This document shows, in pieces, positions 6,670-14,623 of a stretch of 64,000 bases of DNA. Each line of letters opens with the position of its first letter. Position 1 is the first letter of the stretch. Source of the DNA: Aerosticca soli (GTDB taxonomy: Bacteria > Pseudomonadota > Gammaproteobacteria > Xanthomonadales > Rhodanobacteraceae); assembly GCF_003967035.1 (NCBI RefSeq), contig NZ_AP018560.1:1635001-1699000 (forward strand), read 5' to 3'. The notes below the pieces were generated by a model. The model was not told the DNA's origin and searched no databases. It saw nothing but the letters and a program-made list of their open reading frames with translations. A program made the position numbers and the translations under genes.

Positions 6670-7317
6670 TCAATGCGAGAGCGGCTGGGTGGTGATGACC
6701 GGCAGATCGCCGATCACGTCGACGCCCGGCGGCGGCGTGAAGGTGAACGTGTCCGGCGGCAGTGGAACGTTGCGCCGCCAGTCGCTGAAGCGGATGTCGG
6801 TGAGCGCGCCGAGCGCGTCGCGAAACTGCATCCGGGCCAGCCCTTGCGCATCGAAACCGAGGTCGGCGTATTCGAACTGCGGATCCCTGGCCGTCGAGGT
6901 CAGCCGCAGCCAGAGCAGACCGTCGCGCGCGCCCTCCTCGCTGACCTTGAACTCGCGGTCGATCTGCTTGAGGTCGGTAAGCACGGTGAGCGGGCTGTGC
7001 GCCTCCTCGCTGCTCTGCACGCGCACCGTCACCTGCTCGAGTTCCGGGTCGTAGAGCCAGACACGGCTGCCGTCGGCCACGATCAGCTGGCGATACGGCG
7101 TCTGCGTCTCCCAGCGGAACTGCCGCGGTGCCTCGAGCGCGAGCACGCCGGCGCTGGTCTTGGGCGGCTCGCCCTCGCCGCCGGTCAAGGTCTGGGTAAA
7201 GCGTCCGGTGAGCGAATGCAGCCCGCCGGCGAAGGCGTCCAGCCGCGAACGCGCGGTGTCGGCGGCATGAGCAAACGCGGTCGAGGCGATCAGCAGCAAA
7301 GCCAGCAGCCGTTTCAT
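6670..7317 (-). CDS. lolA: Outer-membrane lipoprotein carrier protein LolA
   Basis: Periplasmic chaperone that accepts lipoproteins from LolCDE and delivers them to the outer membrane. I start at 7317 because that gives a clean signal peptide (MKRLLALLLIASTAFAHA, cleavage after AHA) and a mature protein of about 197 residues, the usual size. An upstream in-frame ATG at 7350 overlaps the apbC stop and would spoil the signal peptide. The mature part has the LolA pattern LxxxxGRFTQT, PRQFRWETQTPYRQLIVADG and VWLYDPELEQV. It is in the same direction as, and close behind, apbC. Confidence 0.93.
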   Translation of the reverse strand: MKRLLALLLIASTAFAHAADTARSRLDAFAGGLHSLTGRFTQTLTGGEGEPPKTSAGVLALEAPRQFRWETQTPYRQLIVADGSRVWLYDPELEQVTVRVQSSEEAHSPLTVLTDLKQIDREFKVSEEGARDGLLWLRLTSTARDPQFEYADLGFDAQGLARMQFRDALGALTDIRFSDWRRNVPLPPDTFTFTPPPGVDVIGDLPVITTQPLSH

Positions 7318-7346
7318 ACGGGGTCGGTTCCGGTCGTGAAGCATGG

Positions 7347-8429
7347 TCATGGCGTGCCCTGCACCTTGAGCGGCCCCAGCGTCCGGTTGACCGGCGTGAG
7401 GGCGAGGTGGCCGGCGGTACGGCGGGCGATCTCCCGATAGCGGGCGGCCAGGTCCGAGGCCGGCATCGCCGCCACCGTCGGCGTGCCGCCGTCGGCCTGC
7501 TCGCGGATGCGGATGTCCAGCGGCAGCGAGCCGAGATAGGCAACGCCGTACTGCCCGGCCATGCGCGCGCCGCCGCCTTCGCCGAAGATGGGTTCCTCGT
7601 GGCCGCAGTGCGAGCAGACGTGCGTGGCCATGTTCTCGATGACACCGAGCACCGGCACGCCGACTTTCTCGAACATCTTGAGCGCGCGACGGGCATCGAG
7701 CAGGGCGATGTCCTGCGGCGTGGTGACGATCACCGCGCCGGCCACCGGCACCTTCTGCGCCAGCGTGAGCTGGATGTCGCCGGTGCCGGGCGGCAGGTCC
7801 ACGAGCAAGTAATCGAGCGCGTCCCAGCGGGTGTCGTTGAGCAGCTGCATCAGCGCCTGGGTGACCATCGGTCCGCGCCAGATCATCGGCGCGTCCTCAT
7901 CCACCAGCAGGCCGATCGACATCGCCTGCACGCCGTGCGCGCTCATCGGCACGATGCTCTTGCCGTCCGGCGATTGCGGCCGGCCGGCGATGCCGAGCAT
8001 GCGCGGCTGGCTGGGGCCGTAGATGTCGGCATCGAGCACGCCCGTGCGCGCGCCCTCGGCGGCGAGCGCGAGCGCGAGATTGGCCGCCACCGTGGACTTG
8101 CCGACGCCGCCCTTGCCGGAGGCGATCGCGAGGATGTTCTTGACGTTGGGCAGCGGCGTCAGCGTGCCCTGCACCTTGTGCGGCTGCACGCGCCAGGCGA
8201 CCGACACCGTCGCCGCGGCGATGGCCGGATCGGCCTCCAGCGCCGCGCGCGCCTGCGCGGCCAGCGCGTCGGCGACACCGGCGGCCGGATAGCCGAGCAG
8301 CAGATCGACCGAAACCCGCGCGCCATCCACGCCGATCGCGCGAATCGCACCGGCGAGCGGCGCGCCGGTGGCCGGATCGATCACCTCGCCGAGTAGCCGG
8401 CGTACCGCGGTTTCATGCGTCTGCGTCAT
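7347..8429 (-). CDS. apbC: Iron-sulfur cluster carrier protein ApbC/Mrp (P-loop ATPase)
   Basis: 360 residues. An N-terminal MIP18/DUF59-like domain (about residues 5-95) is followed by a Mrp/NBP35-type ATPase with a deviant Walker A (ASGKGGVGKSTVAANLA), the switch DADIYGPSQPRMLGI, and the paired cysteines of CSHCGHEE that bind a bridging Fe-S cluster. Family members bind and pass on 4Fe-4S clusters. A CATAAT hexamer on the minus strand near 8455-8460 may be its -10 element. Upstream the divergent DUF2147 gene begins 138 bp away. Confidence 0.95.
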   Translation of the reverse strand: MTQTHETAVRRLLGEVIDPATGAPLAGAIRAIGVDGARVSVDLLLGYPAAGVADALAAQARAALEADPAIAAATVSVAWRVQPHKVQGTLTPLPNVKNILAIASGKGGVGKSTVAANLALALAAEGARTGVLDADIYGPSQPRMLGIAGRPQSPDGKSIVPMSAHGVQAMSIGLLVDEDAPMIWRGPMVTQALMQLLNDTRWDALDYLLVDLPPGTGDIQLTLAQKVPVAGAVIVTTPQDIALLDARRALKMFEKVGVPVLGVIENMATHVCSHCGHEEPIFGEGGGARMAGQYGVAYLGSLPLDIRIREQADGGTPTVAAMPASDLAARYREIARRTAGHLALTPVNRTLGPLKVQGTP

Positions 8430-9093: not shown

Positions 9094-9942
9094 ATGAATG
9101 ACGACTCCGCCAGTCATGGCGGCCCGGCGCACCGATCCTGGTGGGACCGACTGGGCCATCTGTTCTCGGGCGAACCGCGCAACCGCGAAGAACTGATCGA
9201 GGAACTGCGCGCCGCCAACGCCAACGGTCTGCTCTCCAACGAAACCCTGGCCATGGTGGAGGGCGCGATCAAGGTCACCGAACTGCGCGTGGACGACGTG
9301 ATGGTGCCGCGTGCGCAGATCGTCATGCTGGCGGCCGATGCGCCCCTGCCGGAAATCCTCGCCACAGTGGTCGAGTCGGGCCATTCGCGTTTTCCCGTGC
9401 ACGGGGAGGACAAGGACGAGATTCTCGGCATCCTGCTCGCCAAGGACCTGCTGCGGGTCATCACCCGCGAGCTGCCGTTCGACATCCACACCATTTTGCG
9501 ACCCGCGGTCTTGATTCCCGAGTCGATGCGGCTCAACGTGCTGCTGGCCGAGTTCCGCCGCTCACGCAACCACATGGCGCTGGTGGTGGATGAATACGGC
9601 GGCGTGGCCGGGCTCATCACCATCGAGGACGTGCTCGAGCAGATCGTCGGCGAGATCGATGACGAGCACGACGACGAGGAGCCGGCGCTGATCCACGCCG
9701 GCGCCCAGGGCGAATGGACCGTCGATGCGCTGACGCCGATCGCCGAGTTCAATCAGGCCACCGGCGCGCACTTCTCCGACGAGGAGTTCGACACCGTCGG
9801 CGGCCTGGTCACCGCCGCCTTCGGTCATCTGCCCGAGGTGGGCGAGGAAATCGTGCTCGAGGGTTTCCTGTTCCAGGTCACCGAGGCCGACGATCGCCGC
9901 GTGCACCAATTCAAGGTGAGCCGCCACACCCGCCATGAATGA
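9094..9942 (+). CDS. corC: CorC/HlyC family CBS-domain protein
   Basis: 282 residues from the ATG at 9094; the frame is open further upstream but that part would cross the palindrome and has no protein character. A short N-terminal segment precedes two CBS domains (about residues 65-185; VMVPRAQIVMLAAD and FPVHGEDKDEILGILLAKDLL are characteristic), and a CorC/HlyC transporter-associated domain closes the protein (GEWTVDALTPIAEFNQATG, FDTVGGLV). It is linked in enterobacteria to Mg/Co efflux. Normally lnt follows it; here a DUF4105 gene overlaps its stop. Confidence 0.94.
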   Translation: MNDDSASHGGPAHRSWWDRLGHLFSGEPRNREELIEELRAANANGLLSNETLAMVEGAIKVTELRVDDVMVPRAQIVMLAADAPLPEILATVVESGHSRFPVHGEDKDEILGILLAKDLLRVITRELPFDIHTILRPAVLIPESMRLNVLLAEFRRSRNHMALVVDEYGGVAGLITIEDVLEQIVGEIDDEHDDEEPALIHAGAQGEWTVDALTPIAEFNQATGAHFSDEEFDTVGGLVTAAFGHLPEVGEEIVLEGFLFQVTEADDRRVHQFKVSRHTRHE

Positions 9943-11236
9943 CGCGGGCCGGCACCCGGCCGGGCGGGCCGGTGGCGGCGCCATGCACCGGCCGCGCCGC
10001 CGCCCTTTTCTGTCCTGCGTCGGCAGACTGGGGCTCGCCGGGTGTCTGTTGCTGTTCACCGGCCTGATCCGGGCGGGCATCGCCGATGCTCCCGGGACGG
10101 CGCTGGAGGTCTCGCTGATCACCTATGGGCCGGGCGAAACCTACTGGGAACGCTTCGGCCACGACGCCATCGAACTGCGCGACCGCATGAGCGGCGAGGC
10201 GGTGAACTTCAACTACGGCGTATTCGATTTCGACGAAAGCGGCTTTCTGCTCAACTTCGCCCGCGGCCGCATGACCTACCGCATGGACGCGGTGCCGAGC
10301 GACGAGGACATCGCCTACTATCGCGACGAAGGCCGCTCGGTGCTGCGCCAGCGGCTGGCCCTCGATGCGGCCCAGGCCGCGGGCCTGCGGGATTTCCTGC
10401 TGTGGAACCTGCGCCCGGAAAACGCCCGCTACGCCTATGACTACTTCACCGACAACTGCACCACGCGGGTGCGCGATGCGCTCGACCGTGCGCTCGGCGG
10501 CGCGCTGCATCGGGCGCTCGCGGCCCGTCCGGGCGGGCCGACTTACCGGCAGCAGACCGACCGCCTGATGCGCGCGCAGCCGGCGCTGATGCTGCTGCTC
10601 GATCTCGGGCTCGGTCCCTACGCCGATCGCCCGCTCGATGCCTGGCAGGCCAGCTTTCTGCCGCAGGTCCTGGCCGAACAGTTGCGCGCCATCGCCCTGC
10701 CCGGCCCGAGCGGCGCCCCGATGGCGCTGGTGCGCGCCGAGACGTCGCTGGCGGCGGGCCGCATCGCGGCGGCGGACGAACCGCCAGACCTGCGCCCACC
10801 CCTGGCGCTCGCCGGGCTGGCACTGGCCGCGCTGCTGCTCCTGGCGCGGCGCCGCTGGCCCACCGGTTTCGCCGTGCTGGCCACGTTGTACCTGCTCGCC
10901 GCGGGTATCGTCGGCGTGCTGCTGCTCGCGCTGTGGACGCTGACTGCGCATCGCGCCGCCTGGGCCAATGCCAATATCCTGCTGTTCAGCCCGCTGGCGC
11001 TGGCCTTGCTGGCCACGCCCTGGCGTGTGCGCCGCGGCCTTGCCCCGACCGGCCTGGCGCAGACGGCGCTGACCTTGCAGCTGGTCGCCGCGCTGATCGC
11101 CGTGCTGTTGCATCTGCTGCCCGGTCCGGGCCAGCAGAATCAGCCCTGGCTGCTGTTCGCGCTGCCGTGCTGGCTGGCGCTGGCCTGGCTCACCCGGCGT
11201 CCGGCTGCGGTCGCAGCCGGCGGCATCGGCGAGTAA
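9935..11236 (+). CDS. DUF4105 / Lnb-like membrane protein, putative lipoprotein N-acyltransferase
   Basis: 433 residues. A signal-anchor near residues 25-47 leads to a periplasmic DUF4105 (PF13387) domain with [25 protein letters not shown] and [17 protein letters not shown] His followed later by a Cys is the order of permuted NlpC/P60-LRAT-type acyltransferases. Four or five membrane helices fill the C-terminal third (about 285-425). I recall that members of this family were shown to replace Lnt as apolipoprotein N-acyltransferase (called Lnb); this is from memory. The start overlaps the corC stop; an internal ATG at 9983 is an alternative. The place next to corC is where lnt usually lies, which supports the inferred role. 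Confidence 0.8.
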
Positions 11237-11273
11237 ACTGGCCCGTTCGGCACCACTGCCCGATCGCCCCTTC

Positions 11274-12620
11274 ATGGCCCACAAGCTTTTCATCAAAACC
11301 CACGGCTGCCAGATGAACGAGTACGACTCGGCCAAGATGGCCGAGGTGCTCAAGGCCTCGCACGGCCTGGAGTTGACCGCCGACGAGAACGAGGCGGACG
11401 TCATCCTGATCAATACCTGCTCGATCCGCGAGAAGGCGCAGGAGAAGGTGTTCAGCCAGCTCGGCCGCTGGAAGGCGCACAAGGCCGGCGGCCGGCCGGT
11501 GGTGATCGGCGTCGGCGGCTGCGTGGCGAGCCAGGAGGGCGAGGCGATCCTGAAGCGCGCGCCGTTCGTGGACATCGTGTTCGGCCCGCAGACGCTGCAC
11601 CGCCTGCCGGAATTGATCGAGGCACGACACGCCACCGGCAAGGCGCAGGTGGACGTGTCCTTCCCCGAGATCGAGAAGTTCGATCGCCTGCCCGAGCCGC
11701 GCGCGGAAGGCCCGACCGCCTTCGTCTCGATCATGGAAGGCTGCTCGAAGTACTGCTCGTACTGCGTGGTGCCCTACACCCGCGGCACCGAGATCAGCCG
11801 TCCGTTCGACGACGTGCTGGTGGAAGTGGCCACGCTCGCCGACCAGGGCGTGCGCGAGGTCACCCTGCTCGGCCAGAACGTCAACGCCTATCGCGGCCCC
11901 ATGCACGATGGCGGCATCGCCGACCTGGCGGTGCTGATCCATGCCATCGCGCAGATCCCATCGATCGGCCGCATCCGCTTCACCACCTCGCATCCGCTGG
12001 AGTTCTCCGATTCGCTGATCGAGGCCTATGCCAGCGTGCCGAAGCTCGCCAACTTCCTGCATCTGCCGGTGCAGAGCGGCTCGGACCGCATCCTCGCGGC
12101 GATGAAGCGTGGCTACACCGCGCTCGAGTTCAAGCAGAAGATCCGCAAGCTGCGCGCGGTGCGTCCGGACATCTGCATCAGCTCTGATTTCATCGTCGGC
12201 TTTCCCGGCGAGAGCGAGGCGGATTTCGAGAAAACGATGCGGCTGATCGACGAGGTCGGCTTCGACCAGAGCTTTTCCTTCATCTTTTCCGCCCGCCCCG
12301 GCACCCCGGCGGCCAACCTGCCCGACGATACCCCGGCCGAGGTCAAGCACGCACGACTGGCGCGCCTGCAGGCGAAGCTCAACGACAACGCGCGCAGGAT
12401 CAACGAGGCCATGGTCGGCACCGTGCAGCGCGTGCTGGTGGAAGGCCCGAGCCGCAAGAACGCAGCCGAGCTCACCGGCCGCACCGAGAACATGCGCTAC
12501 GTGAACTTCCCCGGCCCGGCGGGGCTGGTCGGCCGCTTCGTCGACGTCGAGATCACCGCTGCGATGAGCAATTCGCTGCGTGGCCGGCTGCCGGTCGAGG
12601 CCCTCGCACTCGCCTCATGA
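11274..12620 (+). CDS. miaB: tRNA-2-methylthio-N6-dimethylallyladenosine synthase MiaB
   Basis: 448 residues, normal length. Radical-SAM methylthiotransferase that converts i6A37 to ms2i6A37 in tRNAs reading UNN codons. The N-terminal UPF0004 domain holds three cluster cysteines ([33 protein letters not shown]). The radical-SAM core has [15 protein letters not shown] (CxxxCxxC), and the C-terminal TRAM domain includes [11 protein letters not shown]. The following GNAT overlaps its stop by four bases. Confidence 0.98.
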
Positions 12621-13108
12621 GCGAACTTAACATTCGCGCGATCGACGCCAAGGATTTCGACTTGGCGTGGCCGGTCTTCCGCGAGGTGATTGCCGGCGGC
12701 GACACCTACAGTTTTCCGCCGGACATGGATTTCGCCGCCGCGCGCGCCGCCTGGACCACGCCGCCGGCACGCACCTATGTCGCCGAGCGCGACGGCACGG
12801 TGCTCGGCTGCTACGTGCTCAAGCCCAACCAGCCGGGGCTTGGCGACCACGTGGCCAACGCCGGTTACATGGTCGCCGCCGCCGCGCGCGGCCAGGGCAT
12901 CGCCTCGGCCATGTGTCTCCATTCGATGGACGAGGCGCGTCGCGCCGGTTTCACCGCGATGCAGTTCAACTTCGTCGTCGCCACCAACACCAAGGCGGTC
13001 GCGCTGTGGCAGCGCCACGGTTTTGCGATCGTCGGCCGCGTGCCCGGCGCCTTCCGCCACGCCGTGCATGGGCCGACCGACGTCTACGTCATGCACCGAT
13101 ACCTATGA
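12617..13108 (+). CDS. GNAT family N-acetyltransferase
   Basis: 163 residues forming one GNAT domain, with the acetyl-CoA loop region [23 protein letters not shown] and a C-terminal strand [11 protein letters not shown]. It is close to the YhhY/PhnO-like group often described as L-methionine sulfoximine/small-amine acetyltransferases, but the substrate cannot be read from sequence. It overlaps miaB (ATGA) and phoH by four bases each, so it is translationally linked inside an otherwise RNA-processing operon, an unusual insertion. Confidence 0.9.
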
Positions 13109-14121
13109 ACGCCACACCCACCCAACGCGATTTCGCTCTCGACCCGGAAGACAACGCCCGTCTCGCCAATCTGTGCGGACCGTTCGACGAACACCTGCGC
13201 CAGCTGGAACTGCGCCTGGGCGTGGAGATCGACCACCGCGGCAACCTGTTCCGGGTGATCGGCGACGAGGCCGCGGCCCACACCGGCGAGCAGGTGCTGC
13301 GTACGCTCTACGCCGCCACCGAACAGGAGGCGCTGACCGGCGCGCGGATCCACCTGCACCTGTCCGAGGCGGGCATCGACGCCGCGGTCGAGGAGGCCGC
13401 CGCCGGCACGCAGGACGTGGTGATCAAGGTCAAGCGCGGGGTGATCAAAGGCCGCGGCCCGAACCAGGCGCGCTACCTGCACGCCATCGCCACCCACGAC
13501 ATCAACTTCGGCGTCGGCCCGGCCGGCACCGGCAAGACCTACCTCGCGGTGGCGAGCGCGGTCGAGGCGCTGGAAGCCAACCGCGTGCAGCGCGTGCTGC
13601 TGGTGCGTCCGGCGGTGGAGGCCGGCGAAAAGCTCGGCTTCCTGCCCGGCGATCTCTCGCAGAAGGTCGACCCGTACCTGCGTCCGCTGTACGACGCGCT
13701 GTACGAGATGCTCGGCTTCGAGAAGGTCGCCAAGCTGATCGAGCGCAACGTGATCGAGATCGCCCCGCTCGCCTACATGCGCGGCCGCACGCTCAACGAT
13801 GCGTACGTCATCCTCGACGAGGCGCAGAACACCACCGTCGAGCAGATGAAGATGTTCCTGACCCGCATCGGCTTCGGCTCGGTGGCGGTGATCACCGGCG
13901 ACGTGAGCCAGGTCGACCTGCCGCGCCACGTGCGTTCGGGACTGCGCCATGCGATCGAGGTGCTGCGTGGCGTCGAAGGCATCAGTTTCACCTTCTTCAC
14001 CGCGCGCGACGTGGTGCGCCACCCGCTGGTGGCCAAGATCGTGCGCGCCTACGAGGCCTTCGAGCAGGCCGCGCCGGCAGCCGCCACACGTCCTGCCGAA
14101 TCCGCCCGGCATGCCGACTAG
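13105..14121 (+). CDS. ybeZ: PhoH-like ATPase (YbeZ)
   Basis: 338 residues starting at the ATG that overlaps the GNAT stop. The N-terminal ~120 residues are KH-like, followed by a PhoH P-loop domain with Walker A GPAGTGKTYLA, VRPAVEAGEKLGFLPGD and the Walker B/DEAQNTT motif. PhoH proteins are ATP-binding partners of YbeY in rRNA processing and quality control; helicase activity has been proposed for some members. The overlap with ybeY fits the known pairing. Confidence 0.95.
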   Translation: MNATPTQRDFALDPEDNARLANLCGPFDEHLRQLELRLGVEIDHRGNLFRVIGDEAAAHTGEQVLRTLYAATEQEALTGARIHLHLSEAGIDAAVEEAAAGTQDVVIKVKRGVIKGRGPNQARYLHAIATHDINFGVGPAGTGKTYLAVASAVEALEANRVQRVLLVRPAVEAGEKLGFLPGDLSQKVDPYLRPLYDALYEMLGFEKVAKLIERNVIEIAPLAYMRGRTLNDAYVILDEAQNTTVEQMKMFLTRIGFGSVAVITGDVSQVDLPRHVRSGLRHAIEVLRGVEGISFTFFTARDVVRHPLVAKIVRAYEAFEQAAPAAATRPAESARHAD

Positions 14122-14623
14122 CCACGGCGCAGCTAAAGCCGGCGCCCCGTCACCACGTGCGCCGCGGCTGCAGGTGCACTTGAGTTACGGCGTGCCGCGC
14201 CGCGGCCTGCCGGCGCCGGCGAGCTTCCGCCGCTGGGTGCAGGCGGCGCTGCACGGCGCCGGGCACCGCCGAGCCGCGGAGGTGGCGATTCGTCTCGTCG
14301 ATGCGGACGAAGGCCGCGCGCTCAATGCCCGTTTCCGCGGCAAGGACTATCCCACCAACGTGCTGTCGTTTCCCGCCGAGCCGCCACCGGGCCTGCGCCT
14401 CGCGCTGCTCGGCGACCTCGCGCTCTGCGCGCCGGTGGTGATGCGCGAGGCGCAGGCGCAAGGCAAGCGCCCGCGCGATCACTTCGCCCACCTCACCGTG
14501 CACGGCGTGCTGCATCTGCTGGGCCATGACCACGAGGAAGCCGCCGCCGCCCAAGTCATGGAAGCCCTGGAAAAACGCATCCTCTCAGGCCTCGGCATCG
14601 CCGACCCGTACGCGGACGACTGA
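14111..14623 (+). CDS. ybeY: Endoribonuclease YbeY
   Basis: 170 residues. The zinc site is complete (HGVLHLLGHDH, the H-x3-H-x5-H motif), preceded by the family signature NARFRGKDYPTNVLSFP and GDLALC. YbeY is needed for 16S rRNA 3'-end maturation and late ribosome quality control. I start at the ATG at 14111, which overlaps phoH by 11 bases; the first ~18 residues are Ala/Pro-rich and may be poorly conserved. Confidence 0.95.
   Translation: MPTSHGAAKAGAPSPRAPRLQVHLSYGVPRRGLPAPASFRRWVQAALHGAGHRRAAEVAIRLVDADEGRALNARFRGKDYPTNVLSFPAEPPPGLRLALLGDLALCAPVVMREAQAQGKRPRDHFAHLTVHGVLHLLGHDHEEAAAAQVMEALEKRILSGLGIADPYADD

Follow-up and report, generated by a model that had tools for sequence, protein, structure and literature searches.

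The gene at positions 9935–11236 of the window (the 64,000-nucleotide stretch of Aerosticca soli DNA analyzed here) very probably encodes this bacterium's lipoprotein N-acyltransferase, an enzyme of the Lnb kind that replaces the missing Lnt in the chromosomal slot after corC; the activity is proposed from sequence and from a predicted fold. The computed evidence consists of the gene, its domains, predicted fold, and invariant residues, the absence of Lnt, and the exchange of the slot across the order (NCBI Lysobacterales, including Xanthomonas and Rhodanobacteraceae). The relevant features of the window are:

6670–7350, reverse strand: LolA
9094–9942, forward strand: corC (CBS plus transporter-associated domain), 282 residues from the Met at 9094; Pfam CorC_HlyC, CBS, and NMB0537_N
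9935–11236, forward strand: candidate Lnb-type lipoprotein N-acyltransferase gene, 433 residues; PF13387 plus PF25221, NF051878, AF2 model, and fold matches
9983–10066, forward strand: putative signal peptide or membrane anchor region (residues 17–44), from hydropathy and a modeled helix at 27–42
10091–10762, forward strand: predicted periplasmic permuted NlpC/P60 domain (residues 53–276), from VIA-align
10160–10162, forward strand: codon of His76, the predicted catalytic His (RFGHDA), invariant in 124 of 124 homologues
10457–10459, forward strand: codon of Cys175, the predicted catalytic Cys (DNCTT), invariant in 124 of 124 homologues
10793–11197, forward strand: C-terminal membrane domain (residues 287–421), from PF25221 and the model helices
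11274–12620, forward strand: miaB; Pfam UPF0004, Radical_SAM, and TRAM
12617–13108, forward strand: GNAT acetyltransferase gene between miaB and phoH; Pfam Acetyltransf_1
13105–14121, forward strand: phoH; Pfam PhoH
14108–14623, forward strand: ybeY-like ORF (approximate start), with homologues between phoH and corC in relatives

The base composition of the Lnb-type ORF is of the coding type (G+C of 0.75, 0.53, and 0.88 at the three codon positions). Its ATG shares 8 bases with the end of corC, whose stop codon occupies 9940–9942; Met17, at 9983, is an equally possible start. The first-pass annotation had described a DUF4105 ORF overlapping corC, and both Lnb domains are indeed over their Pfam cut-offs: PF13387 (Lnb_N, DUF4105) with 73.7 bits against 22.2, and PF25221 (5TMH_Lnb; residues 295–392) with 34.7 bits against 25.2. 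These were the only domains identified by Pfam, and the combination of LNT_N and CN_hydrolase with Cys-Tyr-Glu (CYE), the Lnt motif known from the E. coli enzyme, was not found in the protein. The NCBIfam model NF051878, an Lnb equivalog, aligned co-linearly (protein residues 54–367 on model positions 26–338 of 394) with a score of 156 bits (E 1.3e-45). As this score is under the equivalog cut-off of 550 bits, the protein is filed in the wider Lnb-type family and not as a Bacteroides Lnb equivalog or close copy. All 34 members of alignment A2 match both NF051878 and Lnb_N, and 33 of them match PF25221 (E 0.001). Among the best 80 of 122 matches, the closest named Lnb is that of Fulvimonas soli (Rhodanobacteraceae, Lysobacterales), with 75% identity.

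The AF2 model built from 34 relatives (mean pLDDT 89, pTM 0.84) contains a domain of mixed strands and helices, with long membrane helices after it. In VIA-align, the best-ranked rows, aligned over residues 53–276, were TseH (Z 12.1) and, with Z 10.9 and 10.8, two YiiX-type proteins; two viral 2A proteins (Z 8.5 and 8.3) came next, and the remainder lay at 6.2 or lower. Foldseek gave weaker results, with TseH at a probability of 1.00 and E 5.2e-3, no row below 0.001, and human CLN5 as the first row; a sequence search against solved structures returned chance-level matches only. On the basis of the model, the periplasmic domain is predicted to adopt a permuted NlpC/P60 fold, the family whose pattern had been recognized in the first-pass annotation. 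His76 precedes Cys175, giving the ordered pair of permuted NlpC/P60 enzymes, and these putative catalytic residues are the His and Cys singled out at that stage. Loss of the pair among close relatives, which had been named as evidence against the proposal, was seen in none of the 124 aligned homologues. The membrane half, too, has residues that are invariant in all 124: His339, Asn345, and Asn347.

No Lnt was detected in the whole genome of A. soli (one contig, 2.87 Mb, completeness 99.97), where the search for a normal lnt proposed in the first-pass annotation gave no TIGR00546 match better than 24.8 bits (cut-off 132.9). The genome contains four CN_hydrolases in frames of 310–601 residues. 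Three of the loci are soluble-looking ORFs of 288–586 residues without an Lnt-like membrane half, and the fourth is a 310-residue frame. A hidden Lnt was rejected on these grounds, the TIGR00546 score being under the cut-off and the CN_hydrolases soluble-looking where read. An Lgt was found, scoring 258 bits (cut-off 118.9). The LolC/E family is represented by one gene over the cut-off (478.5 bits) with an adjoining LolD-like ORF, which is the LolF arrangement.

To place the A. soli gene in its order, the same 299 genomes were searched for the window protein, PF13387, and TIGR00546. The window protein was matched in 288 genomes and PF13387 in 286. The 11 genomes without the Lnb-type protein comprise eight drafts (completeness 65–88%) and G006, G017, and G019, each of which has a CYE-bearing Lnt that scores ~300 bits and is encoded directly after corC. 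Among the order loci read, a corC-linked, CYE-bearing Lnt was found only in these three. TIGR00546 was over its cut-off in 34 genomes, and the 31 beyond G006, G017, and G019 all possess Lnb. Ten Lnt-like genes were read (nine from these 31 genomes and one under the cut-off from G295); none has CYE and none of the stretches contains a corC match, while the other 22 of the 31 genomes were judged by score and length only. The Lnt-like genes that were read look like paralogues. L178 and L179 (from G003 and G136) encode proteins of 837 and 821 residues in genomes that also have Lnb; the Lnt-like half carries CLDD for CYE, and the long C-terminal extension gave no Pfam match in the one protein scanned. 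Other members of the order have frames of comparable length. L180 and L181 (from G214 and G295), in the window's own family, encode Lnt-like proteins of 475–548 residues with CKD for CYE and are possibly paralogues with another substrate.

One of the three Lnt-bearing genomes, G019, is probably misassigned to the order. It forms a long branch outside the order, and its rpoB reading is split in two ORFs. Its RpoB is 59% identical to that of an order member, compared with 70–77% for the outgroups, except G344 (60%), which is odd too. Its corC product is 30% identical to the window's, and its PhoH is also far from those of the order. G019 was treated as misassigned, leaving f7, a single genus with two genomes, as the real Lnt-bearing exception (f7 and f9 are group codes for families of the order sample). 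The comparison of corC–DUF4105 adjacency with lnt presence that had been suggested for Xanthomonadales thus favors an exchange: Lnb is nearly universal, and among the loci read, CYE-bearing Lnt follows corC only in three genomes without Lnb, one of them apparently misassigned.

The location of the gene was examined in several sets of loci. The 80 named Lnb loci are the best 80 of 122 confirmed matches and cover Rhodanobacter, Dyella, Frateuria, Fulvimonas, Oleiagrimonas, Luteimonas, Lysobacter, Thermomonas, and others; because the search patterns came from the window protein, the set leans towards its relatives. Within this set, corC lies directly upstream of Lnb in 79 (the exception has miaB there), and phoH-ybeY-corC-Lnb lies on one strand in 71. 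Directly upstream corC was also found in 27 of 30 loci from the closest order members (the window's own included) and in all 14 loci read from further families, the latter chosen from rows with coordinates given. The class loci with Lnt have the order miaB-phoH-ybeY-corC-Lnt in 19 of 20 cases, selected mainly among the highest scorers and not at random; in the remaining one, only Lnt was found. The expectation that lnt follows corC therefore held in the class, with the addition that the neighborhood in the window is itself rearranged. The array at 9094–14623 reads corC-Lnb-miaB-GNAT-phoH-ybeY, as opposed to the miaB-phoH-ybeY-corC-Lnb usual in relatives. The corC-Lnb pair is kept despite the rearrangement, 37 bases separate the Lnb-type ORF from miaB, and the GNAT gene overlaps both miaB and phoH. 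The last ORF contains HGVLHLLGHDH, which we take to be the YbeY motif. Non-homologous displacement of Lnt at lnt's own locus, as put forward in the first-pass annotation, is the best explanation of the order, class, and slot surveys.

The wider class was represented by 274 genomes, which were searched for Lnt, PF13387, and PF25221. Lnt was over the cut-off in 247 of these. PF13387 was found in 65, of which 62 are outside the window's order, and 58 of the 62 (counted by eye) also have an Lnt match of E 1e-74 or better. The proposition that any DUF4105 protein is an Lnb was rejected on this count. The four genomes outside the order with PF13387 and without such an Lnt match are G344, G361, G364, and G460. 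PF25221, on the other hand, was over the cut-off in only three of the 274 genomes (the window's and the two other order members in this sample), none of which has Lnt over the cut-off; since the three are related and not independent, they represent one evolutionary event. The DUF4105 proteins other than Lnb that were read are of three types: ~590–650 residues with DUF7843 and, in part, DUF7842 and DUF7840; ~350–390 residues with helices before the domain; and ~760 residues with DUF7844. Where scanned, they have no five-helix domain. In the genomes surveyed, it is the five-helix Lnb architecture, and not the DUF4105 domain, that goes with the absence of Lnt. Two points thus extend the first-pass annotation: the exchange applies to the order generally, and a DUF4105 domain by itself is not predictive of Lnt loss.

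Two further observations concern these other architectures. Proteins of ~350–390 residues with helices before the DUF4105 domain and an SNCTT motif are encoded at L009 and L021, in order members that also have Lnb, and at L276, outside the order. G344 (2.0 Mb, complete), whose Lnt match is no more than weak (E 8e-14), may be another lineage without Lnt; its DUF4105 proteins, L277 and L278, have ~590–630 residues, both with DUF7843 and one also with DUF7840.

The history of the exchange was approached with gene trees. The rpoB tree united the order (support 100) and nested the Lnt-bearing f7 beside f9 (SH-aLRT 93); a position of f7 as the deepest branch of the order was not rejected (AU p 0.163). 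The corC tree grouped f7 with the order (support 93). The Lnb tree (14 rows) was too weakly resolved to place the arrival of Lnb in time, and the Lnt tree did not resolve a donor for f7. The data accommodate either one replacement of Lnt by Lnb after f7 had split off or a replacement at the root followed by a switch back in f7. Because most of the class loci that were read have Lnt in this slot, it is likelier that the first step was Lnb taking the place of Lnt. A more specific and rather doubtful scenario is that of a toggling N-acyltransferase slot, in which Lnb replaced Lnt at the root under a tolerant LolF, f7 later returned to Lnt in the same position, and lipoproteins of the whole order, including Xanthomonas, would be triacylated by Lnb, contrary to the published inference of diacylation. 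As a guess, a tolerant LolF-type exporter could have let cells survive for a time without N-acylation, which would have facilitated the exchange; species with LolF are reported to tolerate lnt deletion in the available portions of PMC11784454 and PMC7240156.

That same tolerance bears on the function of the gene. With a single LolC/E gene, N-acylation may be dispensable, so the absence of Lnt alone proves nothing. N-acylation might have been lost, with the LolF-type exporter carrying diacylated lipoproteins and the corC-linked protein serving as a lipid hydrolase or as an acyltransferase for another substrate (phospholipid, lysophospholipid, or amine). The one LolC/E-family gene followed by a LolD-like ORF and the lnt deletions of LolF species (PMC11784454, PMC7240156) are consistent with such a loss, as are the fold relatives, among them a toxin and NlpC/P60-group proteins that act on lipids. 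For Xanthomonas campestris B100, the accessible text of PMC10368991 reports no Lnt gene, concludes that lipoproteins would be diacylated, and uses a diacyl anchor in its models of LolA and LolB. However, loss of N-acylation leaves unexplained both the replacement at lnt's slot in nearly the whole order and the co-linear match to Bacteroides Lnb, membrane domain included, and we consider it unlikely. It is much less probable still that another protein, either a divergent paralogue of Lnt or an enzyme with no relation to it encoded elsewhere in the genome, performs the reaction. Lnt-like paralogues without CYE do exist in some order members, but none was found in the A. soli genome (G000), whose CN_hydrolases lie in the 310–601-residue frames described above and look soluble where read. 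The chance that a DUF4105 gene merely adjoins corC is negligible: co-occurrence of other DUF4105 proteins with Lnt outside the order (58 of 62 genomes) means that the domain alone says little, but those proteins have no five-helix domain where scanned, and adjacency to corC in 79 of 80 named and 14 of 14 other loci, spanning many families, already contradicts chance.

For the favored assignment, an Lnb-type N-acyltransferase in place of Lnt, we infer catalysis, acyl donor, substrate, topology, and a triacylated product as follows. The protein would sit in the inner membrane through a C-terminal set of about five helices, with the permuted NlpC/P60 (LRAT/YiiX-like) domain in the periplasm, where His76 would activate Cys175. 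An acyl chain from a phospholipid would first be bound to Cys175 as a thioester; its acceptor would be the free amino group on the N-terminal cysteine of a lipoprotein already processed by Lgt and LspA. The resulting triacylated lipoprotein would be exported by the single LolC/E-type (LolF) protein with LolD. As the order seems nearly devoid of Lnt and has an Lnb-type protein at the same place, its lipoproteins are probably triacylated and not, as assumed, diacylated. An order that includes plant pathogens and common soil bacteria appears to be almost without orthodox Lnt. A resident Lnb, if true, would overturn the diacyl inference for X. campestris set out in the available part of PMC10368991. 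The case is further an example of an envelope enzyme whose chromosomal position has been taken over by an unrelated one.

The Lnb of Bacteroides was reportedly described in PNAS in 2024. It is reported as a lipoprotein N-acyltransferase in the accessible portions of PMC12994826, PMC13103446, and PMC11694511, and is also treated in those of PMC12345273 and PMC13251419. The window protein resembles it (NF051878; PF13387 plus PF25221) in having the same two domains in the same order, a co-linear alignment over residues 54–367, the ordered His and Cys, and no accompanying Lnt; it differs in belonging to a gammaproteobacterial branch, in scoring 156 against 550 bits, and in being encoded after, and overlapping, corC. 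With Lnt (TIGR00546; LNT_N plus CN_hydrolase), it shares the proposed reaction and the slot after corC, but Lnt is of the nitrilase type and the window protein is a predicted permuted NlpC/P60 enzyme, with another fold and chemistry and no sequence relation found. A search covering mostly nonsubscription papers, as far as their accessible text extends, found no publication assigning Lnb to this order. The general DUF4105/Lnt exchange is already known: the available part of PMC12994826 (PLoS Biol 2026) places DUF4105 among permuted NlpC/P60 proteins and describes its exchange with Lnt in three genomic contexts, the two replacing each other at one locus as they do here. In that text DUF4105 is worded as displaced by Lnt, whereas the class-wide pattern here suggests that Lnt is the older occupant of the slot, and the section on the exchange, in the part available, does not name the window's order. 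With YiiX, LRAT, and TseH, the periplasmic domain shares the predicted permuted NlpC/P60 fold (Z 10.8–12.1); those proteins have no Lnb membrane domain and act on other substrates. New here are the order-wide extent of the exchange, the five-helix architecture rule, and the conflict with the published inference of diacylation for Xanthomonas.
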